Source of the DNA: a virus
Length of the DNA: 39,444 bases
Direction: 5' to 3' (one strand)
IMG/VR virus record: IMGVR_UViG_3300033153_009965
Coordinates: 1-39,444 of that record
Below are positions 4,923-33,966 of the stretch, piece by piece; position 1 is the stretch's first letter; the number at the start of each line of letters is the position of its first letter. Below the pieces are notes generated by a model that saw only the letters and a program-made list of their open reading frames with translations, had not been told where the DNA came from and did no database searches. A program made the position numbers and the translations under genes.

Positions 4923-5528
4923 ATGCATATCAATGAATTTAGATTTATGAAAAGAAAGAACTTAGGTAACTATGAGCATGAAGAAGTCACTATGGCTGCT
5001 AGTGTTGATGAGTCCGACAATGTAGTTGAAGTGGCTCTATTTGTTAAACAAGAAGTATATAGAGCACTAGGAGAAGTATATGTTTCCAATGTTGAAGTTG
5101 CTGCCAAAAGCGATACTGCATCTAATAAAGAGGAATTACCTCCTAAGGTACCTGCGACTAAGAAAGCTGCGAAAAAAGCACCTAGAAAGAAGGCAGCAAA
5201 GAAGGTGGCAGGAAAACAGAATGTTTCATCGGTACAACATGAGTCCGGGGACGATAATGGAGTTTCGAGGGAAACCCCCACTAATAATAAAGGACAAAAT
5301 AATGCTTCCGAGAGGAACGGAGATAAAGGACGACTGGGACATGACGGAGTAAAGGTAACAGCAGCCACTCTTGAGGATGTTAGAAAGAACCTCAGCCAAG
5401 TTTGGAAGAGCGAAGGTAAGGGAGTAGCTTTTGGTATTCTTGAAAACTTTGGAGCTAAGAAGTCCGAAGAACTTACTCCTGATGTCTACACTGAAGTTAT
5501 AGATAAATGTCAGCAGGTGTTGGCGTGA
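4923..5528 (+). CDS. Lys/Ala-rich two-domain phage protein
   Basis: 201 residues. The N-terminal domain (INEFRFMKRKNLGNYEHEEV) matches a conserved phage replication-module protein. The middle linker (near 75-100) is AAKKAPRKKAAKKVAGK-like, resembling histone H1 tails, and probably binds DNA or is disordered. The C-terminal domain (TLEDVRKNLSQVW to FGAKKSEELTPDVY) is a small helical module also found in other phage proteins. Its position between helicase and nuclease suggests an accessory role in replication or recombination. The function is not established. Confidence 0.8.
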   Translation: MHINEFRFMKRKNLGNYEHEEVTMAASVDESDNVVEVALFVKQEVYRALGEVYVSNVEVAAKSDTASNKEELPPKVPATKKAAKKAPRKKAAKKVAGKQNVSSVQHESGDDNGVSRETPTNNKGQNNASERNGDKGRLGHDGVKVTAATLEDVRKNLSQVWKSEGKGVAFGILENFGAKKSEELTPDVYTEVIDKCQQVLA

Positions 5529-20725: not shown

Positions 20726-21490
20726 CTATCCTATGAAATTAATTGCATAAGCACTAGTTACATCATCTATAATTACCGCTTTACCTGCCTGTACTGACAG
20801 TCTAGTTCCTACAGCTATAGCCACAGGTACCTTCTCATCTGGAGTTAGGGGTAAGTGGCATAGAAATACCTCTGCACCTAACAAACCTGTATATAGATTA
20901 ACAAATTCACCCATGTCATGGCTCATCATTAATTCAGTTATTGGGGCTGCTGTGGCAGTTACAATCTCTAGAAAGGCTCCACCTGCGGCTGGAATTGCCC
21001 TACCACCTGTAGGAACATCCAGAGGAATATCCATAATATCAACAACCGTTCTAGGAGGTGGAGTAACGAATTGATTTCCGTTTAAGTCAGCTGTAGCTGA
21101 AACGTACCTAAGTTGGTCGAAGGTATCAGTAACTACAGGAGCTGCTGAAAGACCAATAAGGACTATATAATCAGTCCCTGTACTTATAACTTGAGCCTCT
21201 TCCCCTAATTGGGTTCCAGAGGTCATTCTAATTACATCATATTGTTTTATTGTGTGTGCGGTCACCGGTAGTACAAATCTAGATAATACTCCATTTGCAT
21301 CTACCGCATCTACCGCTAAAGCTGTGGCGACCGAGCCCAAAATCTTGGGAGAGGTCTTTAAAGCGTATATGTCCTTAGAATGATTAGATAAGGAAGCATA
21401 TCCTTGTTCTTGGCGAACATCAGCAGAAAATCCATTCCCGACCGATATTGCTTTGTTCCATAAATTGCTGAGGTAACCTTTCATTGACAT
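20726..21490 (-). CDS. Putative structural protein, 254 residues
   Basis: Beta-rich protein in the fibre cluster: KGYLSNLWNKAISVGNGFSA start, VTAHTIKQYDVIRMTSGTQL, then YIVLIGLSAAPVVTDTF and a C-terminal barrel-like part (VAIAVGTRLSVQAGKAVIID). The alternation of small and hydrophobic residues fits a capsid decoration or fibre-base domain. AAGGAGTGGAGAT precedes the ATG. No family named. Confidence 0.6.
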   Translation of the reverse strand: MSMKGYLSNLWNKAISVGNGFSADVRQEQGYASLSNHSKDIYALKTSPKILGSVATALAVDAVDANGVLSRFVLPVTAHTIKQYDVIRMTSGTQLGEEAQVISTGTDYIVLIGLSAAPVVTDTFDQLRYVSATADLNGNQFVTPPPRTVVDIMDIPLDVPTGGRAIPAAGGAFLEIVTATAAPITELMMSHDMGEFVNLYTGLLGAEVFLCHLPLTPDEKVPVAIAVGTRLSVQAGKAVIIDDVTSAYAINFIG

Positions 21491-21531
21491 ATCTCCACTC
21501 CTTAAGGGCTTCTTTGTATACTCCTGCTATA

Positions 21532-21882
21532 TTAGCAGATTTGTTCTTTTATATCCAATACACCTTTCAACTGTACAATTCTAATCTTAAAAGGTGTATC
21601 CTTATCCAATAGGTCTATTTCAAAATCTTTGGAGGAAGTGTCTAGCAATGCGGTTTGGGCATCTGTTAGGGATATTGTGATATTTCCGCAGTCATTTGAA
21701 CCATTTATAACTATTGTAGTAGCAATCCTATCAGCAGTTATTGCTGCTCCAGTGCTTACAAAACAAGCAGTTATGTTGCCTGTGCCTGAAGCGTATTGGG
21801 TTAAATCTAAATTTGCCCCATCTCCATCTTTGAGTTGAACCGTAATATCTCTATCTTCACCTTGAATTATTTTAAGACTCAT
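21532..21882 (-). CDS. Putative baseplate/fibre-base protein (BppU N-terminal-like), 116 residues
   Basis: Begins SLKIIQGEDRDITVQLKDGD, close to the strand pattern of BppU-type N-terminal domains (kGD-x-...-v.l.d.dG....l), and continues TTIVINGSNDCGNITISLTD and DFEIDLLDKDTPFKIRIVQL. A single small beta domain. The gene overlaps the end of the 157-residue gene. The homology is suggestive only. Confidence 0.55.
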   Translation of the reverse strand: MSLKIIQGEDRDITVQLKDGDGANLDLTQYASGTGNITACFVSTGAAITADRIATTIVINGSNDCGNITISLTDAQTALLDTSSKDFEIDLLDKDTPFKIRIVQLKGVLDIKEQIC

Positions 21883-22345
21883 TAACTACTCCTTCAATTA
21901 TAGTATCTTGTTCTATTGTACCTAGCAATATTTCCTCGATTAAGGCACCTTCTAATCCAGTATCCGAGTTTGCTACTGCGACAATATCTGCTACAGCACC
22001 CCCAATATTGGAAACTTTAGCATCTAAGTTATTCTCGATTAGTTCTCCTATTATGTCTCTCACGAATATCTCCGATAGAAAACGAGGGTTATATTTAGTT
22101 TCAGGACTAGTCCCATTTGATTTCCGAATAAAGTATAACACCTTAATTGCGCCATTTGTAGGCATCGTATGGGTTTCTTCTGTATAAGAGCCATCCCCCT
22201 CGTTATTTAGTTCAAATTCGGAAGTCAATATTGTGCCATCTAGCTCCTCTATCCTAGAAAATACCCTAGTAGAGGGAAACTTAGCCCCGTCACCTAGTTG
22301 AATTTCTAATTCTAAGGTGTCCCCTAGCTTTTTAAAAACAGACAA
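21872..22345 (-). CDS. Putative fibre-associated protein, 157 residues
   Basis: Starts at TTG 22345 with GAGG upstream. The first 95 residues are a beta domain (LGDTLELEIQLGDGAKFPST; NGAIKVLYFIRKSNG) related in pattern to the next gene. The C-terminal part is helical and hydrophobic (FVRDIIGELIENNLDAKVSN; LEGALIEEILLGTIEQDTII). Probably part of the tail fibre base. No family recognised. Confidence 0.55.
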   Translation of the reverse strand: MSVFKKLGDTLELEIQLGDGAKFPSTRVFSRIEELDGTILTSEFELNNEGDGSYTEETHTMPTNGAIKVLYFIRKSNGTSPETKYNPRFLSEIFVRDIIGELIENNLDAKVSNIGGAVADIVAVANSDTGLEGALIEEILLGTIEQDTIIEGVVNES

Positions 22346-22411
22346 AAATTACCTCGTATTTATTTCTATATAAGCCTTAATCATCATAAATAACCCCTAT
22401 ATTTCAAGCCT

Positions 22412-23035
22412 CTACAGGTCTAAGTAAGGTTGTGCTGCTAAAGTTGCTGCGGGTTCGTCAACCGCTAATAATACCGCCACAACGTAAGTATCAAATAAAA
22501 CTCTTTCCGTTATAACCTTTAATGCAATTGCCCCTAGTATCTTAGTTAAGTCGGTGTCATCTATTATATTATAGCTGTCTCGCTCATCAAAAGTGAAAAC
22601 CTTAAAGGTGTAAGTAGCTAACCCTTTTGAAAGAAGCGTTTCTATCTTTGTCCAATTGTCTTGGCTTTCGGTTGAGCAAGAAAACATTTTTCCTGACGAC
22701 GCTGGGTATTCAAATAAAATTTTATGTGAGTTAAATCTATCACTTCTTTTTTCTACAAGTAGTGAAATAATTTCATCTTTAAAAGTATTTAAACTAACGG
22801 GAATAAGTACGCCAATTTTGTGGGTTGTTTCTATAAGTTGAGATAATGAAAAGTCATAGGACCATTGTTTTGATAGGTCGATTGCCGTGGCATCTATTCC
22901 GGTATAATCAGCTACGTTAAAAGGTGGCGTATATTCATTACAAAAATTTAAAACCGCCGTAGTTATGTTTACCGCATCCCTAAATTCTTCTAATGGCACT
23001 AAGCCTATATCACTTTTTACTATTGCTACTTTCAT
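22412..23035 (-). CDS. Putative fibre assembly/attachment protein, 207 residues
   Basis: Mixed alpha/beta (VAIVKSDIGLVPLEEFRDAV; YDFSLSQLIETTHKIGVLIP). The C-terminal half (FSCSTESQDNWTKIETLLSK to LTKILGAIALKVITERVLFD) resembles DUF4376-like domains near tail-fibre genes. Starts immediately after the split fibre fragment's stop, with AGGAGTTAAGTTAA upstream, so it probably works with that fibre. Assignment tentative. Confidence 0.5.
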   Translation of the reverse strand: MKVAIVKSDIGLVPLEEFRDAVNITTAVLNFCNEYTPPFNVADYTGIDATAIDLSKQWSYDFSLSQLIETTHKIGVLIPVSLNTFKDEIISLLVEKRSDRFNSHKILFEYPASSGKMFSCSTESQDNWTKIETLLSKGLATYTFKVFTFDERDSYNIIDDTDLTKILGAIALKVITERVLFDTYVVAVLLAVDEPAATLAAQPYLDL

Positions 23036-23221
23036 TTAACTTAACTCCTGTAGAAAATACATTGTAGTTTCGCCTGGCTTATTGGAGGCGTCCCATTCTA
23101 TCTCTACATAATCGCCCGCAAGAACGCTTACGGAAATAGTTTCGACTCCTGATTTTGCAGCACCGGACAAATTTGTTAAAATTACGGTAGCCTCAACGCT
23201 TCCATTAATATGTATTTTCAT
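23036..23221 (-). CDS. C-terminal fragment of a split fibre gene, 61 residues
   Basis: Begins MKIHINGSVEATVILTNLSG and ends in a beta strand block (VSVLAGDYVEIEWDASNKPG; TTMYFLQELS) typical of the tip domain of fibre trimers. It overlaps the end of the preceding gene by 17 bases, precisely where a 10-bp unit is duplicated. Removing one unit fuses the two frames as ...TTSTQ-MKIHING. It could be made by reinitiation, by frameshifting, or only after slippage restores the frame. Confidence 0.6.
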   Translation of the reverse strand: MKIHINGSVEATVILTNLSGAAKSGVETISVSVLAGDYVEIEWDASNKPGETTMYFLQELS

Positions 23222-23777
23222 TTGAGTTCATTTGAGTTGAAGTAGTTCCGTCTTTAGTTTGGTAAGCTAACTTAGTTAAAGTACCGTCTGAAATAATTGG
23301 TTGGCGCGTTTTAGTTTTCGATAACTCGTCAGCATCACTAGACTTTCCGTTAGCGACTAAAAACCTTCCGAGAGTATCGGACTTAGCTCCGAAAGGGCAG
23401 CAAGCGATTACTTGCGTTCCACCGCCACCACCTGCTGGAACAGAATATGCCCCCGTCCCATCTAAATACTTAGTAGCATCATTAGGTGCCTTAGGGGCTA
23501 ACCCATGCGCTGTAATGGAAACATTCAAATCCGTATTATCATCGGGCTCAGCTAAATCATCTAATTTTATTGCATCACTACCGCCTGATTGGTGGCTAAC
23601 TGCGTGAGCTGCGATAGGTGTTGTGAAATAAGCCAAAGAGGTCCAGACTGTGACCCCATCTCCAAACTTTAATTTTTTAGTGTCAGTCTCAAAACCCATC
23701 TCACCATCGGCTAAAGTAGGATTTACGGAAGTAAAATTAGCGGCGGTGTCTCTTCTGATTTGTATTTGTACTGCCAT
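23205..23777 (-). CDS. Fibre/receptor-binding protein, N-terminal part, 190 residues
   Basis: The N-terminal domain (VQIQIRRDTAANFTSVNPTL; DGEMGFETDTKKLKFGDGVT) matches the fibre-attachment domain of phage tropism and hyaluronidase-like proteins (Q-x-RR-x-T ... GE-x-G-x-ETDT-x-KLK-x-GDG). Then AHAVSHQSGGSDAIKL and a C-terminal beta domain (TQVIACCPFGAKSDTLGRFL). The last eight codons (NSNENTY and stop) are out of register because of a 10-bp duplication. The domain continues in the next gene, so this was probably one longer gene. Confidence 0.7.
   Translation of the reverse strand: MAVQIQIRRDTAANFTSVNPTLADGEMGFETDTKKLKFGDGVTVWTSLAYFTTPIAAHAVSHQSGGSDAIKLDDLAEPDDNTDLNVSITAHGLAPKAPNDATKYLDGTGAYSVPAGGGGGTQVIACCPFGAKSDTLGRFLVANGKSSDADELSKTKTRQPIISDGTLTKLAYQTKDGTTSTQMNSNENTY
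23218..23237. repeat. Exact 10-bp tandem duplication TCATTTGAGT
   Basis: Two perfect head-to-tail copies at 23218-23227 and 23228-23237 (ACTCAAATGA twice on the coding strand). The unit length is not a multiple of three, so it shifts the frame of the fibre gene and creates both the early stop and the new start. Confidence 0.9.
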
Positions 23778-24040
23778 TAGGCTCCTCCCCCATCAGCTAC
23801 TTGAGTTAATAGGTAAACTGTTCCGGCTGAACCCCCTTCTATATTAGAGTCTGTGGAACCTGAAAATTCTTGCCAAACCCCTAACACTCTTTGCCATAGT
23901 TTAGAACTGGCTGTATCGGTATAAAAGGAACCGTTAGGGGCATCATCCGTAGGATTGCCAGAGCCAGAAAAAAACCCTCCAGCTCCATCTATTATGAGTC
24001 CTTCATTTACTTCAAAAGCTTTTTCTTTATCGAAAGCCAT
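23777..24040 (-). CDS. Small fibre-module protein, 87 residues
   Basis: Contains GSGNPTDDAPNGSFYTDTAS, then SKLWQRVLGVWQEFSG: the same small module (G-x-G-x-P-x-x-x-A...G-s-x-Y...W) found in the 395- and 527-residue neighbours. Gly-rich tail (TQVADGGGA). Starts at a TAATG overlap with the upstream gene's stop. Likely a collar or fibre adaptor; role inferred from module sharing. Confidence 0.6.
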   Translation of the reverse strand: MAFDKEKAFEVNEGLIIDGAGGFFSGSGNPTDDAPNGSFYTDTASSKLWQRVLGVWQEFSGSTDSNIEGGSAGTVYLLTQVADGGGA

Positions 24041-25227
24041 TAAATAGCCACCCTTGAAACTCTTTGAGCTCTAACATTTATAGCTGACGAGGCAGCAACA
24101 TTTAGCCCTATAGTTTGGGTGCCTGCACTTCCTGACAATTCAACTGTGACTGTTTTATTAAAACTAGCCCCAAATTTCAATTTACTATAGATAGTATCAT
24201 CTACATTAACAGCATCGGCTGTAGTTTTTCCATCGTGCATTGCCCGTATAATAAATGACCTGACTCGGGATTCGTCAGAGGCTAAGGTTAAATCTACCTG
24301 CCATGTAACAGACCTATAATCATCCACTAGTAATGAATCAATTAGCTGTTTAGTAGTTACGGAGTTTTGAGTAAATTGAGCATCTAGCCCAAAAATAGCA
24401 TCAGCATTTTCTTGAATACCAGCCTTAGCAGTCGTGTTATTGGTTAAATGGGTTTGAGGACCCACATAAGACCCAAAATTGGTATCTCCCTGACTAATAC
24501 CCATTGCCGTGTCTTGAGCATCGTTATTTCCATCAACTTTTTCAATTGCTGATTCAACAGTATCAGCAGAAGTAATATTCCCTGAAGCAGCAGTATAACC
24601 GCTGGATAAATTAATGCCAGTAGCAAAATCCCAATTAACATCACCAATTTTATTTAAAACTGCACCGTCATAATTAACAAGAGCTTGTTTTTCTTGTTCG
24701 TCAGGACTATCTGGTAGGTAATTCTTAACTATAAAATTATCGCCAGCAGTAAGAGGATTTGAAGTTTCTTCAACTAATGTAATATCTGGAGCTGAAACAG
24801 CAGTAACCTCAAATAGTTTTACGGTCCCGCCAATTCCCGAAATTATATAATCCCCAATCACAAAATCTGAAGAGTCCAAAAACGGAGTCTCATCATCACT
24901 AAATGGAGTTGCCGTTAAATCTCTAACACCAGCAGAAAGAGCTTCGCCAGTACCAGCTACAACACTTTCATCTCTAAAACTAAGACTTAAAAGGTCGTCC
25001 AGCGTGGCATCTTTTACCCATTTGTCGGCTCCAGAGCCAGCAGTCTTTTTTGTATATGTTGAGCCTATACTGTCTTGTTGAAAATATTTGGAACCCACAT
25101 CAGCAGCATCTTGGTCTCCTGCGTCACCGCCGGGAACACCAGTTCCTTTTAAAAGAGATATGCCACCATCCCCATTCTCATCGGAGATTTTCCCTCCTCT
25201 TTCTATATCAAATAAATCCCTAGCCAT
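24040..25227 (-). CDS. Putative fibre or decoration protein, 395 residues
   Basis: Starts ARDLFDIERGGKISDENGDG, then the shared module (GTGVPGGDAGDQDAADVGSK; STYTKKTAGSGADKWVKDA), a beta-domain middle (DSSDFVIGDYIISGIGGTVK), a helical spacer (SADTVESAIEKVDGNNDAQD) and a beta-rich end (FGASFNKTVTVELSGSAGTQ). AGGAGGATAAA precedes the ATG. Architecture fits a head fibre or tail fibre. No family named. Confidence 0.6.
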   Translation of the reverse strand: MARDLFDIERGGKISDENGDGGISLLKGTGVPGGDAGDQDAADVGSKYFQQDSIGSTYTKKTAGSGADKWVKDATLDDLLSLSFRDESVVAGTGEALSAGVRDLTATPFSDDETPFLDSSDFVIGDYIISGIGGTVKLFEVTAVSAPDITLVEETSNPLTAGDNFIVKNYLPDSPDEQEKQALVNYDGAVLNKIGDVNWDFATGINLSSGYTAASGNITSADTVESAIEKVDGNNDAQDTAMGISQGDTNFGSYVGPQTHLTNNTTAKAGIQENADAIFGLDAQFTQNSVTTKQLIDSLLVDDYRSVTWQVDLTLASDESRVRSFIIRAMHDGKTTADAVNVDDTIYSKLKFGASFNKTVTVELSGSAGTQTIGLNVAASSAINVRAQRVSRVAI

Positions 25228-25228
25228 T

Positions 25229-25561
25229 TTATCCTCCTAAAATTAACTGCCCAACGGTTACAGTTAATGTAAATAGTTCGTTATTTTTTAATCTTATAAG
25301 TACATTTCCTGCACTTGATATCTCGCTAATTTCCATATCTATAACCCCTAACTTAGCAAATAAGGAACTACTTAAAGCCCCATCCGTCCTATTAACCATT
25401 AAAATCAATGATTTAGACTTATTCTCAGTCTCATTTCTGGCGTTAATTATATAGTACCCCAACCTATATGAGGTTTCGGCATCTGAAGAAATAGTGATGG
25501 TGCTGCCAGAAGTTACAGTCTCTTCTCGCTGTTCCAGTTCACTTATAGGAACAAAAGGCAT
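25229..25561 (-). CDS. Hypothetical beta-rich virion protein, 110 residues
   Basis: Short beta protein (ETVTSGSTITISSDAETSYR; LGYYIINARNETENKSKSLI; AGNVLIRLKNNELFTLTVTV). No Cys, no membrane segment. GAGGAGTATT precedes the ATG. Sits between the decoration candidate and the fibre cluster. No family recognised. Confidence 0.55.
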   Translation of the reverse strand: MPFVPISELEQREETVTSGSTITISSDAETSYRLGYYIINARNETENKSKSLILMVNRTDGALSSSLFAKLGVIDMEISEISSAGNVLIRLKNNELFTLTVTVGQLILGG

Positions 25562-25622
25562 AATACTCCTCTTCTAAAAGGGCTAGATTCATTGAGAACC
25601 CAACCCCATTATAGATTAATAG

Positions 25623-25994
25623 TTATGCTTCGTAATCAAATCTTTGGTCTGTTGCACCCAAAGTCAAACTAATATCAGCATCTTGAGCTGCTCCTGTGGA
25701 AGCTGCTGTACAAGCTACTTGAATAGTTGAACCTGTAACTGCTGTAACTGACAATGTAGTGTCTGCAGTAGAGGTTGACCAACCTTTAAGGAATAAATCC
25801 CTTTCAGCTGATGCTTTACCCGTTAATGTGATTGTGTAGTCTCCTGCACCGTTGTCTGCAACGTCAGCCACTAGAAATCTATCGACTCCTGTAGCTGCGG
25901 GAGTACCAGCTGTACCAGTAATTCCAAAATGCATTTCACGATTTCCGACCTGAGCCGTTTTGATACTGCGTTTAGCAGCTCCTTTTCCAGACAT
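25623..25994 (-). CDS. Putative head decoration protein, 123 residues
   Basis: Gly, Thr and Ala-rich beta protein (TGTAGTPAATGVDRFLVADV; GAGDYTITLTGKASAERDLF; STIQVACTAASTGAAQDADI). First gene downstream of the major capsid protein, separated from it by two hairpins; decoration proteins usually neighbour the capsid gene, though mostly upstream of it. AGGAGAATTTT precedes the ATG. Function inferred from place and composition. Confidence 0.5.
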   Translation of the reverse strand: MSGKGAAKRSIKTAQVGNREMHFGITGTAGTPAATGVDRFLVADVADNGAGDYTITLTGKASAERDLFLKGWSTSTADTTLSVTAVTGSTIQVACTAASTGAAQDADISLTLGATDQRFDYEA

Positions 25995-26008
25995 AAAATT
26001 CTCCTATA

Positions 26009-26057
26009 ACCCTTGGGAGGGTATGTTGAAAGTGAGGAGGTTTTTAAGCCCCCTCAC
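26009..26057 (-). terminator. Two hairpins after the capsid gene (partial terminator or RNA processing site)
   Basis: On the transcribed strand, GTGAGGGGG-CTTAAAAA-CCTCCTCAC (9 bp, one G-U; 26057-26032) lies just after the capsid stop and is followed by only TTT. A second hairpin, ACCCT-CCCA-AGGGT, spans 26022-26009. The weak U-run suggests attenuation or 3' end protection that raises capsid mRNA over downstream genes. Confidence 0.5.
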
Positions 26058-26062
26058 TCATA

Positions 26063-27343
26063 TTACTTGGCTAAGTTCTGTAAAACACCATGAGCAGTTG
26101 GCGTAATATAGTTCTCATAGTAACCACCGTAACGGGCTTCATATCCGTCAGAAGCTGATTTTCTAAGGAAAACAGTTCCGTCATCATCAAACCAACCGAA
26201 GTCAGGTCTGTGATGTACTTCAATGAAGTTGTCATTAAGGAAGTAAATCTTATCTTCTGGACAGAATCTGTCGATAAAGATACCGATGGCACCTCTAGTT
26301 GACATGAACTCTACACCTGAAAATGAAAGGTTACCCTTAATATTTCTGTTAGGTAAGTTGTAAACTTTTTGGTCCTCTAGTAAAGCAAGGATGTTTCTGA
26401 ATTGAGTGTAATGAACAACGATTAGGTTTGGAACCTTACCAAACTTACGCTCTACATCAAGCATAGTGTTATTCATCTTATCGACTGTAACACCTGTTCC
26501 TGTAGCATCTACTTTAGTCATTGACCATCTACGCTCAAAAGGGATTCCGTATAGGGAACCTGAAGAGAAGTTCTCAATTCCGGCAAGACCTTGTGGGTCA
26601 TTCTCATAAGAACCCTGCATACAAATACCTTCGGTAAGTGCAAGAGGTAGAGGAGCAGCTGCAGCGGCGGCAAGAGCTACCGAAACACCAACCAAATCAA
26701 TAGACTGGGCTGCATTATCAACCTCAACAATCTCTAAAAGAGTAAGTTCTGCAGTACCTCCAGCATTAGATGGAAGAGCAGCAATACCTGTAACGGCATT
26801 TACAAAGTCTTTTTCTTCAAAGTTTTCTAAATGGAAATCAGCATCAAAGAACACCTTATAAGGAGAACCTGCAGTACCTGCACCAGTTACGTCTTTTGCA
26901 CTTGAAGCACCACCGAAACCACGACCTAAGATACCTGAACTATCACCAAAAAGGATTCTAGAACAGTTTCTCATGTATGATTCAACAGTCTTCTTAACGG
27001 TTTCTCTTGTTGCTTGAACAAAAGCACCTGCACTATTAGCTGAAGCCTTGATTGATTCTCTGTCGATATCAGCCGTAGCATATACCTTCTTAGATTCAAT
27101 TAAAGCTCCCTTATAACGACCTGCATTTGCAGTTGGTAAAACACCTGAACCAACACCACCTGAGAAACTCAAAGGAGTTGAAACAAAACGCTGCTTACCT
27201 GTGAAGTCATACCGCTTTTTAGCTCGCCCATGTAAAACATTGTACGAGTTGTACATATTTTCTGATTTTTTATAATAATTGATTTTGAATAGGTCCGTCT
27301 GGTCCGTTGGGGATGCAGAGGTACCTAAATTAAATTCTGCCAT
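26063..27343 (-). CDS. Major capsid protein
   Basis: 426 residues, probably HK97 fold. Features include an N-terminal arm (FNLGTSASPTDQTDLFKINY), a glycine-rich E-loop-like part (LSFSGGVGSGVLPTANAGRY), a long helix (NSAGAFVQATRETVKKTVES), Ala-rich strands (VDNAAQSIDLVGVSVALAAA) and a C-terminal block (DRFCPEDKIYFLNDNFIEVH; FGWFDDDGTVFLRKSASDGY) typical of capsid subunits. It follows the portal and scaffold genes. TAGGAGTAACTA gives a strong Shine-Dalgarno. Confidence 0.82.
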   Translation of the reverse strand: MAEFNLGTSASPTDQTDLFKINYYKKSENMYNSYNVLHGRAKKRYDFTGKQRFVSTPLSFSGGVGSGVLPTANAGRYKGALIESKKVYATADIDRESIKASANSAGAFVQATRETVKKTVESYMRNCSRILFGDSSGILGRGFGGASSAKDVTGAGTAGSPYKVFFDADFHLENFEEKDFVNAVTGIAALPSNAGGTAELTLLEIVEVDNAAQSIDLVGVSVALAAAAAAPLPLALTEGICMQGSYENDPQGLAGIENFSSGSLYGIPFERRWSMTKVDATGTGVTVDKMNNTMLDVERKFGKVPNLIVVHYTQFRNILALLEDQKVYNLPNRNIKGNLSFSGVEFMSTRGAIGIFIDRFCPEDKIYFLNDNFIEVHHRPDFGWFDDDGTVFLRKSASDGYEARYGGYYENYITPTAHGVLQNLAK

Positions 27344-27352
27344 TAGTTACTC

Positions 27353-28696
27353 CTAACCGTAATTGAATTGGTCGCTTTCATAATCGTCAAACGACTCAAC
27401 GTGGTCATCGTCCCTAGTTTTACCTACCTTTTTGGGGTTCGTCCCTTTTGAGGACAATTGGTTCTTAGGTTCAACGACTTTTTTGTTTAAACTAGAGATA
27501 TCATCATTGATATCCTCTATTTGGAATCCCAATTTACGTCCGGCTAATTTCACAGCTTCCTCTGGTTCTAAGTAGTCATTAGCTCTTAAAACTTGAGTGG
27601 TTGCTGATATTAGGTTAACCATCTCGTCATCCCCTAATTCTTCTCTAAATTGTCCACAAACGTCTTCAGCTTTTTCGGCAAACGGTACTATTGCTATAAA
27701 CTCGCATACCCTTTCCGCTGAAAGGTCATTTGTATCATAACCTAGCGATATCATTTGGGTCTGGGCTTCCTCAAATTGCTTGTCGTTGACCCCATACTGT
27801 CGCCTTACCTCTACATCCTGATTTACCCGGTCCTCATCGGCTTTCCGGTCCTCAGTTAGTTTGGTTTGGTTAGTCTGGCGGTCAAGAAGTATTTGATTCT
27901 TCTTTTCAGACCAGTAGAGCTTTTGTTCAGCCTCGTCCATATCATTATAATCTAGGGCGAGCTGTCCATAGTGCTCTAACATTCTCTGTTCGTACTTTAA
28001 CACATCATGCCCACCAATATCAACTAAATATCTTAAGGCTTCTGCAGGGTCGGCTTCGGGGTTTCTAAAGATATCATTAATATGAGTCCCGACTCGACCT
28101 AATCTTTCGACTACTTCCTTCTTATCTGACTCAAATGAGTCTCTTTCCTTATTGAAAGTGTTCTTTTGCAGCTCATGGTCTTGGAACTTCTTATCCCAAG
28201 ATTGATTTCCGCTATAATTGCTCATTAGCTCTTTAACTGGGACGAATTGCTTTTTACCGTCTACCTTGACTGCAACAGTGGCATTTTCATCTAAATCTAT
28301 AGAGTCATCTCCGCTTTTAAATCTGACAGCCTTTCCTGTTGGTTGTTCCTTAGGAGCCTCTTCTTTATCCTCTGATTCTCCCTCTGCAGACTTATCTCCA
28401 TCTTCTTCCTCTTTTGAGTCGGCAAGTTGCTCCTTTGCAGCTGCTTTTTCTTCCAGTTCGTTTGCCGAATCCATTGTTTGAGTTGGGTCGTCCTCGTCGT
28501 CTTTTCCTGCTGACTTCTTTGCAACCTCTTGTTTTTCTTCTGTTTTCGCACTATTATCCTCTTTAGTAGGTAGTTCAATAGCGTCTTGGCTATCAAAACT
28601 ATCGAGGTCATCATTGCTCGGAGGTGACCCTTCGGGTGAAAATCCTTCAAATTGCTCTACTTCCTCTACATTCTCATTTTGCTCAACTAAACTCAT
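27353..28696 (-). CDS. Scaffolding protein
   Basis: 447 residues, very acidic (Asp/Glu-rich, ANELEEKAAAKEQLADSKEE, then EDGDKSAEGESEDKEEAPKE) with long coiled-coil helices (SWDKKFQDHELQKNTFNKER; LLDRQTNQTKLTEDRKADED). No enzymatic motif. The place between portal and capsid genes, the charge and the helical content are the standard signs of a procapsid scaffold. AGGAG is 7 bases before the ATG. The C terminus (TRDDDHVESFDDYESDQFNY) is acidic, whereas many scaffold C termini that bind coat are basic. Confidence 0.75.
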   Translation of the reverse strand: MSLVEQNENVEEVEQFEGFSPEGSPPSNDDLDSFDSQDAIELPTKEDNSAKTEEKQEVAKKSAGKDDEDDPTQTMDSANELEEKAAAKEQLADSKEEEDGDKSAEGESEDKEEAPKEQPTGKAVRFKSGDDSIDLDENATVAVKVDGKKQFVPVKELMSNYSGNQSWDKKFQDHELQKNTFNKERDSFESDKKEVVERLGRVGTHINDIFRNPEADPAEALRYLVDIGGHDVLKYEQRMLEHYGQLALDYNDMDEAEQKLYWSEKKNQILLDRQTNQTKLTEDRKADEDRVNQDVEVRRQYGVNDKQFEEAQTQMISLGYDTNDLSAERVCEFIAIVPFAEKAEDVCGQFREELGDDEMVNLISATTQVLRANDYLEPEEAVKLAGRKLGFQIEDINDDISSLNKKVVEPKNQLSSKGTNPKKVGKTRDDDHVESFDDYESDQFNYG

Positions 28697-30792
28697 TCTG
28701 GTGCTCCTTCAGTGGGTTTTTTCATTTGTGTTGCATCTACAGCTCCCTCTTCCATCCCTTGAGGTGGAATACCTTGAGCGTCCATCATATGACCTGCAAT
28801 AACTTTAGTCATAGGCATAGGAGTTTCAAAGAATAACGGGTAGTTATCTAATGCTGCTACTTTTGTAGCGAAATTGATATTCTTTATAGACCTCTCATAC
28901 ATCTGCATTTCAAGAGTCTTCATATACTGCTTCATTAGTGCTTTGGGTCTCTCCTCAATTGATTTATAGGAGAATGCTTGCATAGCTTTCTCAAATACGG
29001 AGTGAGAGGTTAAAAGGTCATCAGAAATCTCAGGAGGGTCAATCTGGTTCCCATCTAAAATCTTCTGGACTGCTGTATTGGCTGCATTTGCTCCAACAGC
29101 GGCTCGGTCCTTAAAATACTCATCATTACCCAAGTCCAGCATTTGAATGATTTCTGGGGTCCTGAATACAGGGTCCATTTGGGTCGCTGTGTTTAGGTCG
29201 ATAATTGCAGAGATTTTACCTGACTTAGTATCGGGCAAAGCTGAACTATTCTGAACCTTAACATCATAAACCTTAGTAAAATCAGCATTTTGCATAGACT
29301 CAATTAGGTACTCATTATCCTTACCTAAAATACGGACAGTTCTACCGTCCTCAGGAGTGTAATACTGCTTCATTCTAGACAGAGCCATTTTTCCTACATC
29401 GACCACTCTTCTCTTCCTCTTACTCTCCTGAACCATAATTCTTTGGGATTCCTGCTCGTCAAGGAATCGGAGGGCTGAGTTAGCGGTGACTCCAGTCGGT
29501 ACTTCACCCCTACTTACATCATATTGAGTTGAGTGCTGAGAAATCTTCTTCTCTAGTCTATCTTGCATTTCAAAAGATTGAGGGGGAGTAGGATTATGAG
29601 TCACAAGCTGAGGGGCTACGGCTCCCTGATATTCCACGATAGTCAAATCATTATTTAAGGAATGTACGTTACAGGCATTTTTAGGCATCATCCATTTAGG
29701 AGCTGAAGCCCAAGAGTAATCCCTAGCTTGTGCTGACTGTATATTATTATAGTATCTTTGCATTTGTTCAATATTTGTGATGAATGAACGACCCCAAAAC
29801 TCACCGTACACATCAATATCTGTGTCAGGTACGCAAGGTAGCTTTCCATCCTCATATGGGAAATCTGTCCATGTCAGGATTAAATCATCACACCAGACTA
29901 TCTTGGCTCCTTCAGGAAGAAACTTCGTAGGTCTGTGGTAGAAGGTGGTTACCATTATTTGAGACTTAGGTCTGATTAGCTCGGCTGAATCAAAGTCATA
30001 AATTTGGCGAGTGTTTTCAGTTATATCATTCGCCTTACTTGGGTACATCTTCTTGAGCTCTTCTACATGGTAGTAGTCGATATGCTCAATATGGTTTATT
30101 TCTTCCCAAGTGAACTTGTTCTGCTCTACATAAATCCTATCGGGTCCATAGGTCTTAATTGTAACATCACCAATATGGACTTCAGCCCCGCCTTTAGGCA
30201 TTTGCTTCTTTATCTCAGTGGGAATCTTATCCCCATACTCCTTCCTTATATTCTCGTAGGCTGGAGAGATTGGTCCTGCGGTTTCATCCCATTCAATAAA
30301 CATGAATTGGTGACCAAAGGTGAATTGCACCCTATCCGCAACCTGATGCTTTTGTTCTAACTTCACATCTTCTGCCCATGAATCGTAGAGTAGCTTACAA
30401 GCCTTAGCATTATTGATATCTGATTGCTCGGCATTATTAGGTATGAAAGCTAAATTGTGCTTCATTCTAGCATTTTGACTGACCCTACCTTCAACCATTT
30501 CCCATACAAAATTAACTGAATGCCTTGGTCTTCGGTGAGTGTATTCCATATCCCTTCTGGTATCTCGTGTGTCGAAGAAACGCCAGTGAATATTTTTATA
30601 CATGGCTTGAAACCTACGATAAACGATACGGCGGGAGTGTGCGGCACGCTCATTATTATCAAAATTTTGAACGAGCCATTCATGAGTCGACTTATCATCC
30701 TTCTTCTCCCTAAATTGAAACGGGGGGATATCTGTATCATCAAGCTGTCGCTCGGTGCTTAGAAAATCATCAAAACTATCTGTCCATACCAT
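28693..30792 (-). CDS. Portal protein
   Basis: 699 residues, forming the DNA entry dodecamer at the capsid vertex. The N-terminal part has AHSRRIVYRRFQAMYKNIHW, RPRHSVNFVWEMVEGRVSQN and a block ending GHQFMFIEWDET. The centre has FWGRSFITNIEQMQRYYNNI and the tunnel-helix region GVTANSALRFLDEQESQRIM, with a helical C terminus. The length fits the larger podoviral portals (P22 type, about 725 residues). Its stop overlaps the scaffold start. AAGGA before the ATG. Confidence 0.82.
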   Translation of the reverse strand: MVWTDSFDDFLSTERQLDDTDIPPFQFREKKDDKSTHEWLVQNFDNNERAAHSRRIVYRRFQAMYKNIHWRFFDTRDTRRDMEYTHRRPRHSVNFVWEMVEGRVSQNARMKHNLAFIPNNAEQSDINNAKACKLLYDSWAEDVKLEQKHQVADRVQFTFGHQFMFIEWDETAGPISPAYENIRKEYGDKIPTEIKKQMPKGGAEVHIGDVTIKTYGPDRIYVEQNKFTWEEINHIEHIDYYHVEELKKMYPSKANDITENTRQIYDFDSAELIRPKSQIMVTTFYHRPTKFLPEGAKIVWCDDLILTWTDFPYEDGKLPCVPDTDIDVYGEFWGRSFITNIEQMQRYYNNIQSAQARDYSWASAPKWMMPKNACNVHSLNNDLTIVEYQGAVAPQLVTHNPTPPQSFEMQDRLEKKISQHSTQYDVSRGEVPTGVTANSALRFLDEQESQRIMVQESKRKRRVVDVGKMALSRMKQYYTPEDGRTVRILGKDNEYLIESMQNADFTKVYDVKVQNSSALPDTKSGKISAIIDLNTATQMDPVFRTPEIIQMLDLGNDEYFKDRAAVGANAANTAVQKILDGNQIDPPEISDDLLTSHSVFEKAMQAFSYKSIEERPKALMKQYMKTLEMQMYERSIKNINFATKVAALDNYPLFFETPMPMTKVIAGHMMDAQGIPPQGMEEGAVDATQMKKPTEGAPE

Positions 30793-31010
30793 TATTGAGT
30801 CCTTTCTTTAAATTGCTCTATTTTATTTGAGATAGCGACCACTTTTAAATTTGTTTCTTCCTGCATAACTAATAGAGGCTCAACTCTATCTAAGTAGAAG
30901 TGTTTCAAAGCTATCTTTACATGATGGTCGTCCACGGTGTATCCGAGCTTGTTACAGTTCTCTAACCACCAAGATTCCACATACTCTAGCCTTATTCTCA
31001 TATCTTCCAT
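30792..31010 (-). CDS. Hypothetical protein, 72 residues
   Basis: Helical acidic-basic protein (RIRLEYVESWWLENCNKLGY; VKIALKHFYLDRVEPLLVMQ; KVVAISNKIEQFKERTQ). The stop overlaps the portal start and the ATG overlaps the previous gene's stop, so expression is coupled to the portal. No family recognised. Confidence 0.55.
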   Translation of the reverse strand: MEDMRIRLEYVESWWLENCNKLGYTVDDHHVKIALKHFYLDRVEPLLVMQEETNLKVVAISNKIEQFKERTQ

Positions 31011-31252
31011 TATGACACCTCAAATCCTTCTTCATCTTTAAATTTATATTCATCTTGAGGAGCGAATTTCCTCAGTATCTCTTCCGCTGAATCTGCTGGG
31101 TCATCTGCAGTCCTTTGAACTGGAGTGAACTCTATTTTATGTGTCGATAGTTTCATACCCCTAACTTCTGAATAGGCTAGAATTGAAAATACGACTGTTG
31201 CTAATGAAAATAGAAATGCAGTACTGCTCAGTACTAATGCTGCTGTTACCAC
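31010..31252 (-). CDS. Small single-span membrane protein, 80 residues
   Basis: GTG start at 31252 with AGGAG upstream. A long hydrophobic helix near the N terminus (ALVLSSTAFLFSLATVVFSI, then LAY), followed by an acidic soluble tail (DDPADSAEEILRKFAPQDEY; KFKDEEGFEVS). Unusual within a head-gene block; it might be a minor membrane or accessory protein. Function unknown. Confidence 0.55.
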   Translation of the reverse strand: MVTAALVLSSTAFLFSLATVVFSILAYSEVRGMKLSTHKIEFTPVQRTADDPADSAEEILRKFAPQDEYKFKDEEGFEVS

Positions 31253-31261
31253 TATCTGCTC

Positions 31262-32452
31262 CTAGTAGAGGGTTTGCTCATTTATAGTTTGCTCGTCATA
31301 ATACCGTCTGTCCACACTTTGCTCCTTATCTAATCCTGCTCTCCTTAGAGCATTGTATTTCTCTTGGGCTGCAAAATGATTTTTAGACTCTGTAGTTTGA
31401 GGGGTTAAGCCCTCAGAACCACTTGGGTCCATAATCTCAAATGCTGCTTCAGCATCCCCTGCCTTATAGGCTAGTGCTGCGGCTATTGGTCCCATCCAAG
31501 GAAGGACCTTTAATCCTGCTCCCTTTAGTCCTTTAGCAAACTTAGCACCCTTTTCCTTAGCATACTTCATAGTGAGTTTCTTATTTCTAGTACTCATAAC
31601 GTCTTTCAATTTAACTGCTTTCCTAATTTTTGGGTCCCCTGTAATCCTTTCTAAATCGCTGGCTACTGAATGCCCTCCAGCAGCATTTGCCCCTAGATTA
31701 CCCATATGAACGTCTTTAAGTATCACGCCTTTAGCTACGCCCCTTTGGTGCATATCCTGCATCTGCTTATATGCCTTTTCCCTAGCTTCAGGACTTAGTT
31801 TACCTAAATCTCCCACCATCTCTTGGCTTAAGGTCACTGGGGCTCCCTTCTTCTTTCTGTGAAAGTAAGAGTCTGCCCCCATATCCCCAAGAGCTTCCTG
31901 CAAGAAAACCCTATTCATTACTCGCCTTCTAGTCTCCTTAATCGGCATTCCTTTGGGGCGATTGAAGCCATGCAATCTTCTTTGATTCGCAGATAGCTTC
32001 GTTCTTTGGGGGATATCCTGTTTAGCAGCCTTAACGAACCTGCCTTCATGTGGTTCTCCTAACATATCTACGCCTTGAGGCATACTTTTTAGGTCGAAAT
32101 CATCCTTCAACCTCATACTCTGTTTAAATTTACGAATTGATTTACGGGCTTGACCTACTTTTTCCGCTTCATACCTTTCCAAAGGTTTAAGGGGTCTATC
32201 TGCAAACTCTAATCTCTTACCCTTTTGCAACCTACTCCTAAGCATCTTATCCTTTAACTTCTTAGCCCCATATTTGCCTGCAGAAACTCCAAGAGCTAAT
32301 CCTGCAGCTACCTCTAACCCACGACTTGGGGTTACTTCGCCACTACCTTCCTTCGCAATGGATTCAGATTTCCTCTTCATCCTTTGATGAGTAACACCTT
32401 CAACAAATGAGGCATTTATCTTCATCCTTTTAATGGAGGTCAGGTCATTCAT
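31262..32452 (-). CDS. Basic virion-block protein with kinase-like catalytic motifs, 396 residues
   Basis: Very basic first 180 residues with a hydrophobic patch (EVAAGLALGVSAGKYGA, near 47-63). Residues 205-275 resemble a protein-kinase C lobe: VTLSQEMVGDL, a helix (PEAREKAYKQMQDMHQRGV), LKDVHMGNLG (candidate catalytic Asp247 and metal Asn252), then SVASDLERI (candidate Asp266). A second hydrophobic stretch is WMGPIAAALAYKAG (near 317-332). The start overlaps the large terminase stop (ATGA). A kinase fold is only a hypothesis; an ejected internal virion protein is the alternative. Confidence 0.55.
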   Translation of the reverse strand: MNDLTSIKRMKINASFVEGVTHQRMKRKSESIAKEGSGEVTPSRGLEVAAGLALGVSAGKYGAKKLKDKMLRSRLQKGKRLEFADRPLKPLERYEAEKVGQARKSIRKFKQSMRLKDDFDLKSMPQGVDMLGEPHEGRFVKAAKQDIPQRTKLSANQRRLHGFNRPKGMPIKETRRRVMNRVFLQEALGDMGADSYFHRKKKGAPVTLSQEMVGDLGKLSPEAREKAYKQMQDMHQRGVAKGVILKDVHMGNLGANAAGGHSVASDLERITGDPKIRKAVKLKDVMSTRNKKLTMKYAKEKGAKFAKGLKGAGLKVLPWMGPIAAALAYKAGDAEAAFEIMDPSGSEGLTPQTTESKNHFAAQEKYNALRRAGLDKEQSVDRRYYDEQTINEQTLY

Positions 32453-33966
32453 TCGTAATACTCCGAGTCAATATGTTCAAAGGGGTTAGCAGCTGCTCTC
32501 TCATCGCGGAGCCCGTCCTCTAACCTAGTATATCTGCTCATCTCTTGCGCCTCGGTTTGGTCAGGAGCCACAACAGGAACTGTATCATAATAATTATTCG
32601 ATAGGATGTATCGTAGGCAATCAATCTCATGGTCGTCCTCTGAACCAGTGTCCTGATTCTTAACAATTCTACCCTTATCATCTACCCTGTACTCCGCAAA
32701 CTCATTGAACGTGTTTGGTGCTTTTTCACAGAAGAGGAGGCACCCCTTAAGGAGTAACATATCCTTAATCAGGTTAATTCGGTCTTCCTTCTTCTTCTTA
32801 AAATCCTTTCGGCAAGGCTCAAGCCCATATTCGTACTCATTGCTTACTTCATTCGCAAACCAAAGGGCTGCATTATCATATATCATTCTACAGTCATCGA
32901 ACAAAATATTCCACTTCCTAAGTAAATCTAGGGCTCTTGGGAATATCTGCTTAGTACTCATTTTAGCTTTTTTGGTCTCATATATCTCATCGAGCACTAT
33001 AACTTGCTTAGTTTCCTTGTGAATTACGGTCAGTTGGACTGCAAAGATTGATGCTGAGGCAGGGTCAAAGCAGAGGAAGAACTCCCAATCCTTATAGTAC
33101 TTTAGCACCCTCTCCCTACAATCTAGTTCAGAGATAATGTGCTCATCCTTATTAATCATCGGAAAGATGTTCCTCTGACCAGCTTGCACTCTCTTGGCAC
33201 CATATTCCCTAAACCACTTATCCTCTTCACCCTTGGCAAATAGCTCTGCTTTCTTCCTCTTCAGCCAATCCTTATCAATGTGGGGATTAACCCAAGAAGG
33301 CATGTTGAAATAAGCTTGATTTTCAGCTGTTCTAGCGTAATCAGCCATAGAGTTGAAATTCTTCTGATTGTCCTCATCGCCTTCACAAGGTGTACCCACG
33401 ATAATGAGAGGGGCGTTGAATGTTGCTAAGTTTGGGTCCATACCAGTATGAAATTTGGGATGATGGTCCTTGAACTCATCATAAACAATAAGATGTGGAT
33501 TGATACCACGATATGCTTGGTGGTTATCCGCCCCATCCAACTTCAGGAAGGAACCATTATTAAACTTTATCCTCATCTCACTATCATTAGGTTTCCCATT
33601 GATGTACTTCTCAGTGAGCTCCTTATATATCTGGTAGGCTTCCTCTCGACTATGTTTACCGTCAAAGGTGCGACCTGTTTCAGGGTTTATTAGGGGGAGG
33701 AAGAAATTCTGGAGTCTGTTGTTTGCCCAAACTAGCTCTTTCGCCTGTTTCTGAAAGGGGGCGATAAAGTAGCAGGCTGAATTGGGGTTACTGAGGGCGT
33801 AACGGTAGAGGAGATAGGCAAGCATCTCAGTCTTTCCAAACTTACGCCCACACTCAAGGAAGATAACTTCCTTACCTTCCCCAAATAGGGCTTTCTTTAT
33901 AAGTGCTTGTCCGTCATGAGGCTGCCAACAAAGCTCTAAATCAAGAATCAGGTCCGATTCATAAAT
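32449..33966 (-). CDS. Terminase large subunit
   Basis: DNA-packaging motor ATPase and nuclease. The frame from 33825 (first ATG) lacks Walker A, which lies upstream: FLECGRKFGKTE, preceded by LDLELCWQPHDGQALIKKAL. Walker B is HLIVYDEFKD; nuclease acidic residues are in FLCFDPAS, MIYDNAA and DDHEIDCLRY. Upstream of 33825 the frame has no ATG, GTG or TTG back to a TAA at 34009-34011. The best candidate start is ATT at 33966-33964, five bases after AGGAACAGG, giving about 505 residues, a normal size; CTG at 33951 or frameshifting from the 57-residue gene are alternatives. The function is certain; the start is not. Confidence 0.9.
   Translation of the reverse strand: MYESDLILDLELCWQPHDGQALIKKALFGEGKEVIFLECGRKFGKTEMLAYLLYRYALSNPNSACYFIAPFQKQAKELVWANNRLQNFFLPLINPETGRTFDGKHSREEAYQIYKELTEKYINGKPNDSEMRIKFNNGSFLKLDGADNHQAYRGINPHLIVYDEFKDHHPKFHTGMDPNLATFNAPLIIVGTPCEGDEDNQKNFNSMADYARTAENQAYFNMPSWVNPHIDKDWLKRKKAELFAKGEEDKWFREYGAKRVQAGQRNIFPMINKDEHIISELDCRERVLKYYKDWEFFLCFDPASASIFAVQLTVIHKETKQVIVLDEIYETKKAKMSTKQIFPRALDLLRKWNILFDDCRMIYDNAALWFANEVSNEYEYGLEPCRKDFKKKKEDRINLIKDMLLLKGCLLFCEKAPNTFNEFAEYRVDDKGRIVKNQDTGSEDDHEIDCLRYILSNNYYDTVPVVAPDQTEAQEMSRYTRLEDGLRDERAAANPFEHIDSEYYE

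Follow-up and report, generated by a model that had tools for sequence, protein, structure and literature searches.

A 10-bp tandem duplication splits the fibre gene of an uncultured phage, probably as a recent and revertible frameshift

Results and discussion

Gene organization of the locus

The stretch of DNA analysed here (the window; virus record IMGVR_UViG_3300033153_009965) spans 39.4 kb. Its plus strand carries phage replication genes (DNA polymerase, helicase, exonuclease and Gp2.5-like ssDNA binding) and its minus strand a block of structural genes that includes terminase, portal and an SU10-like major capsid protein. The small genes that stand in a row downstream of the capsid genes are probably fibre-type. 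In this row an 87-aa gene (23777..24040, minus strand) yielded no family match in the family search and is, from its position only, probably virion structural. It is followed by a 190-aa frame (23205..23777, minus strand), preceded by a good Shine-Dalgarno (SD) sequence, GGAGG, and composed of an Mtd_N domain, a linker and the first ~62 residues of a tip domain; after Met183 the frame runs into out-of-frame NSNENTY and a stop, so that its C-terminal end reads ...TTSTQMNSNENTY*. The second half of the tip (strands 4-8) is encoded by a 61-aa frame (23036..23221, minus strand) beginning with MKIHING at the ancestral Met183. Both frames overlap by 17 nt and are read in different frames. The whole tip module, as delimited by alignments A2/A3 and a structural model, covers 23036..23417 (minus strand; 123 aa in an intact sister contig) with the duplication inside, and the next gene (22412..23035, minus strand, 207 aa) has homologues that sit after the tip module in other phages (tblastn).

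The overlap of the two frames is spanned by a 10-bp exact tandem duplication (23217..23238, minus strand; AACTCAAATG AACTCAAATG AA), an insert that shifts the reading frame. Tandem Repeats Finder reports AACTCAAATGAACTCAAATGAA at 23217-23238 of the minus strand with period 10, 2.2 copies and a 100% match, and thereby bears out the exact 10-bp duplication in the fibre gene that was claimed by a first, sequence-only reading; its description of one gene divided at this point into 190-aa and 61-aa frames is equally correct. No other exact tandem run with a period of at least 7 that is not a multiple of 3 is found in the window. In 60 simulations drawn from the window's own trinucleotide statistics, 0.05 such runs arose per sequence, and runs with a period of at least 10 and at least 12 matches did not occur at all. 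Because the simulated sequences gave so few of these runs, the repeat is real and unusual for the window.

The proposal that the duplication supplies a new start codon proved wrong: the ATG in question is the ancestral Met183, which is kept in nearly all relatives in the alignment. No ribosome-binding site accompanies this start of the 61-aa frame. An SD-like match of 4 nt or longer precedes 24 of the 29 genes that were checked, and a 3-nt match precedes three more; the only genes left with no SD match are the 61-aa frame and a 754-aa gene.

Domain structure and predicted fold

The fibre-attachment domain assigned to the upper frame is confirmed by Pfam: Mtd_N (PF18454) matches residues 5-43 with an E-value of 6.6e-17 and 61.6 bits (against a curated cut-off of 26.3). 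Domains of this family occur widely among the fibres and tail proteins of phages (PHROGs; 481 phage records). The same N-terminal attachment family (Pfam Mtd_N) is found in Mtd of Bordetella phage BPP-1. The C-terminal domain of BPP-1 Mtd is a C-type-lectin domain that is diversified by reverse transcriptase. The C-terminal part of the window's fibre is, in contrast, predicted to be a sandwich resembling C1q/TNF heads.

This C-terminal part (123 residues, ACCPFGAKSD...) behaves as a separate module in alignments A2/A3. It occurs behind widely differing N-termini, both in ~25 environmental phage contigs and in MAGs labelled Flavobacteriales, Algicola and Myxococcales; searches among named phages and PDB sequences gave no matches, and none above the cut-off was obtained in Pfam. 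The tip module and the next gene (MKVAIVKSDIGL...) recur together (window 22412-23417), with different fibre N-termini in the other phages. A homologue of the next gene follows the tip module in 10/10 loci tested with tblastn, and the tip and the gene at 22412..23035 seem to travel as a mobile two-gene cassette.

For the intact tip AlphaFold2 confidently predicts an eight-stranded beta sandwich (pLDDT 86.7, pTM 0.82), in which, as anticipated, a single domain crosses the break. Its top PDB matches belong to the C1q/TNF family (Foldseek, E 5e-5, TM ~0.5), CBM6/35 sugar-binding modules and some phage tail proteins match about equally well (Z 7-8), and phage fibre proteins are also matched in a viral structure library. 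The break at Met183 separates strand 3 from strand 4, leaving three of the eight strands to the upper product and five to the lower frame. With regard to the suggested receptor-binding tip, the model thus agrees in predicting a recognition-type beta sandwich; receptor binding itself is a reasonable inference from the fold and the domain order only.

Comparison with a near-identical contig

Scanning the viral contigs with both frames revealed a contig (IMGVR_UViG_3300033388_003112; L002/L080, hereafter the sister) in which the 10-mer is present once and the 243-aa gene is unbroken. For 11.3 kb its sequence is nearly that of the window; it aligns to 21416-32750 in one piece, the alignment gap corresponding to window 23229-23238. 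The differences between the two contigs over 21416-29598 amount to three substitutions, a pair of one-base indels that compensate each other, and the 10-bp insert, the latter being the sole difference in the fibre gene. On either side of the insert the amino acids are those of the window, and the single open frame of the sister reads TTSTQMKIHING. The prediction that removal of one copy restores TTSTQ-MKIHING in a single frame is thus letter-for-letter the protein of the sister. A search with the window's next gene for further near-identical contigs matched just this same contig.

Beyond 29598 the differences accumulate: 17 substitutions in 29599-30070, one at 31460 and a 21-bp in-frame indel. 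Because of these 17 substitutions and the 21-bp indel, the sister seems to represent a second strain of this phage species and not the same assembly. The substitutions at 29599-30070 are confined to 470 bp of the portal gene (against three in the adjoining 8 kb), a cluster that looks like a recombination tract. The indel lies at ~31675, where the sister has 21 extra bases within a 396-aa gene (31262-32452). At 21213-21416, inside a 254-aa gene (20726-21490) and exactly at the end of the sister, the sister lacks ~95 bp and identity falls to 93.5%; this reflects either strain variation or an assembly end.

The two-copy state is known from one contig and the duplication is missing from every other homologue, as would be seen if the phage truly had one copy and the second had been introduced during assembly or sequencing. 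We consider such an artefact unlikely. The window is a strain distinct from the sister (as judged from the cluster at 29599-30070 and the indel near 31675), and a repeat of 22 bp is far shorter than a read, provided that the platform was short-read. On such a platform, read errors seldom create exact 10-bp tandem copies.

Comparison with more distant relatives

In the relatives compared, the tip locus is fused in nearly all cases and does not consist of two separate genes. One open frame runs through the module in 28/30 homologous tip loci; one of the remaining two runs off the contig end and the other (L106) is split. The 10-bp repeat is absent from all relatives, with a single copy wherever the site is present. 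Since these other relatives likewise have one copy, the single-copy form is ancestral and the duplicated form derived. The exact two-copy 20-mer has three matches elsewhere in viral contigs, none of them in the homologous gene and all in an unrelated context, and a search of 772 genomes (a bacterial class and a phylum) gave no additional split case. In one relative (L005, IMGVR_UViG_3300037245_000403, 5262-5447) the module copy carries GREDFTGPTVSAADNY in place of GVETISVSV-AGDY, a stretch that looks like a compensated double frameshift.

The split in L106 (IMGVR_UViG_3300038629_000118) has an independent origin: one A is missing from CAAATGAAA, a one-base frameshift at the same codon at which the window is broken. 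The frame stops at ...TTTQ* and passes through an ATGA stop-start overlap into MKIHVNG, with the split at positions 120-130 and the break ~125 nt from the contig start. The one-base-deleted junction was also sought in viral contigs, where that of L106 is the only true homologue; a search for closer relatives with an intact allele led at best to ones that share 67% identity in the next gene, and these are intact. The chance of two random indels within 10 nt ranges from 3% (whole gene) to 6% (module), which makes the shared break codon a mild coincidence, suggestive at most. That the TQ-Met183 junction is a recurrent break point, at which independent frameshifts would time and again cut off the outer half of a mobile tip module, we regard as quite improbable.

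The ATGA overlap of L106 is of the classic stop-start type, Met183 is conserved and the break falls between strands, all of which would suit a two-chain tip: termination-reinitiation at Met183 would yield the second piece, which would then reassemble with the first into a working domain. Nonetheless this is very unlikely: the 61-aa frame of the window has no SD, the 17-nt overlap would force a ribosome that terminates there to move backwards, and the relatives are nearly all fused. The same overlap could in principle allow a programmed ribosomal frameshift that yields the fused protein from two-copy DNA. This we deem extremely improbable, as no slippery heptamer is visible by eye and the relatives need no recoding. 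Recoding was furthermore rejected on the direction of the shifts, since opposite ones would be needed: +1 (or -2) in the window against -1 in L106.

Origin and fate of the duplication

Beyond what is established at the locus (the duplication, its one-copy ancestry, the split, the missing SD and the presence of both alleles in near-identical genomes), the two-copy form is probably a recent, revertible loss-of-function frameshift that segregates in the phage population. The ancestral gene would have encoded 243 aa, with an attachment end of the Mtd_N type and a tip predicted to fold as a C1q/TNF-like beta sandwich. Its single unit is flanked by a 2-bp match only (AA...AA, 10 bp apart), which fits simple slippage; slippage between these two AA dinucleotides may thus have duplicated AACTCAAATG. 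The 10-bp insertion would then shift the frame and end the protein at 190 aa, after the third of the eight tip strands, the other five being left in the 61-aa frame. Because only three strands are kept and the other five lie in a frame that has no ribosome-binding site, the tip would most likely not fold; the fibre would lose its recognition head, and a two-copy phage most likely makes a fibre with a ruined head. Homologues have invariant residues on either side of the break, for which reason neither part of the tip is likely to work alone. The mutation would be young and polymorphic, as a near-identical phage retains one copy, and its reversion by slippage would be possible at the low generic rate of any exact tandem duplication.

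Two observations count against this explanation. The downstream half displays no decay in comparison to the sister, which fits a recent origin and fits equally well a retained function or frequent reversion. Moreover, L106 is interrupted at this very codon by another kind of indel, which may point to a peculiarity of the site.

A further possibility, put forward in the sequence-only reading, is that slippage between one and two copies reversibly toggles the full-length tip and has been selected as a host-range bet-hedge. Part of this holds: both states occur in near-identical genomes, and the duplication can collapse, as any exact duplication can. Elsewhere, reversion of tandem duplications of this two-copy type has been measured inside a coding gene, penA of Burkholderia thailandensis, at 9.3e-7 for one duplication and 3.6e-5 for another (PMC4169377). 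The two-copy allele is thus no dead end, although the same is true of any duplication. Marine phage fibre-region proteins with a C1q domain, the class to which this gene probably belongs, are also highly variable (PMC3909814). An evolved switch, however, finds no support in the locus and is improbable. Of the features of phase-variable genes, a frame-changing exact tandem repeat inside an open frame is present (10 bp, 2.2 copies); neither a tract conserved in relatives nor copy numbers beyond one and two were found. There are merely two copies of the 10-mer instead of a multi-copy hypermutable tract, and the 2-bp microhomology of the one-copy form implies that changes from on to off are rare and not programmed. 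Two alleles in two contigs do not demonstrate switching, and our literature search, of incomplete coverage, brought up no phage fibre for which a toggle of this two-copy tandem-repeat kind has been described.

Comparison with known systems points out both likenesses and differences. Like the C1q-domain receptor-binding proteins in the variable islands of marine phages, the fibre of the window is a fibre-region protein of an environmental phage, with a C-terminal head that is predicted to be C1q-like; variation in those proteins shows as under-recruitment and sequence divergence of the domain, whereas here a frameshift removes half of it (PMC3909814). As such heads are reported to be highly variable, loss-of-head variants are not unexpected. 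The penA beta-lactamase provides a likeness for a short exact tandem duplication in a coding gene that is revertible by slippage, but its repeats are multiples of 3 that change specificity in frame, while the 10 bp of the window break the frame and their reversion is only presumed (PMC4169377). In the polyG tracts of Campylobacter surface genes, frame-changing slippage toggles a surface-recognition gene, as it would here; those tracts are homopolymeric and hypermutable, in contrast to two copies of a 10-mer that are absent from relatives (PMC10877375).

In practical terms, gene callers will list two proteins at loci like this where one broken protein exists. Were the TQ-Met183 junction to break recurrently, this would offer phages a general way to shed and regain a recognition head, and if switching were true, a phage would have a simple means of toggling its host range by slippage. 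With one-copy and two-copy genomes of a single phage species at hand, the locus presents a clean natural pair in a gene that is likely to serve host recognition in uncultured phages.
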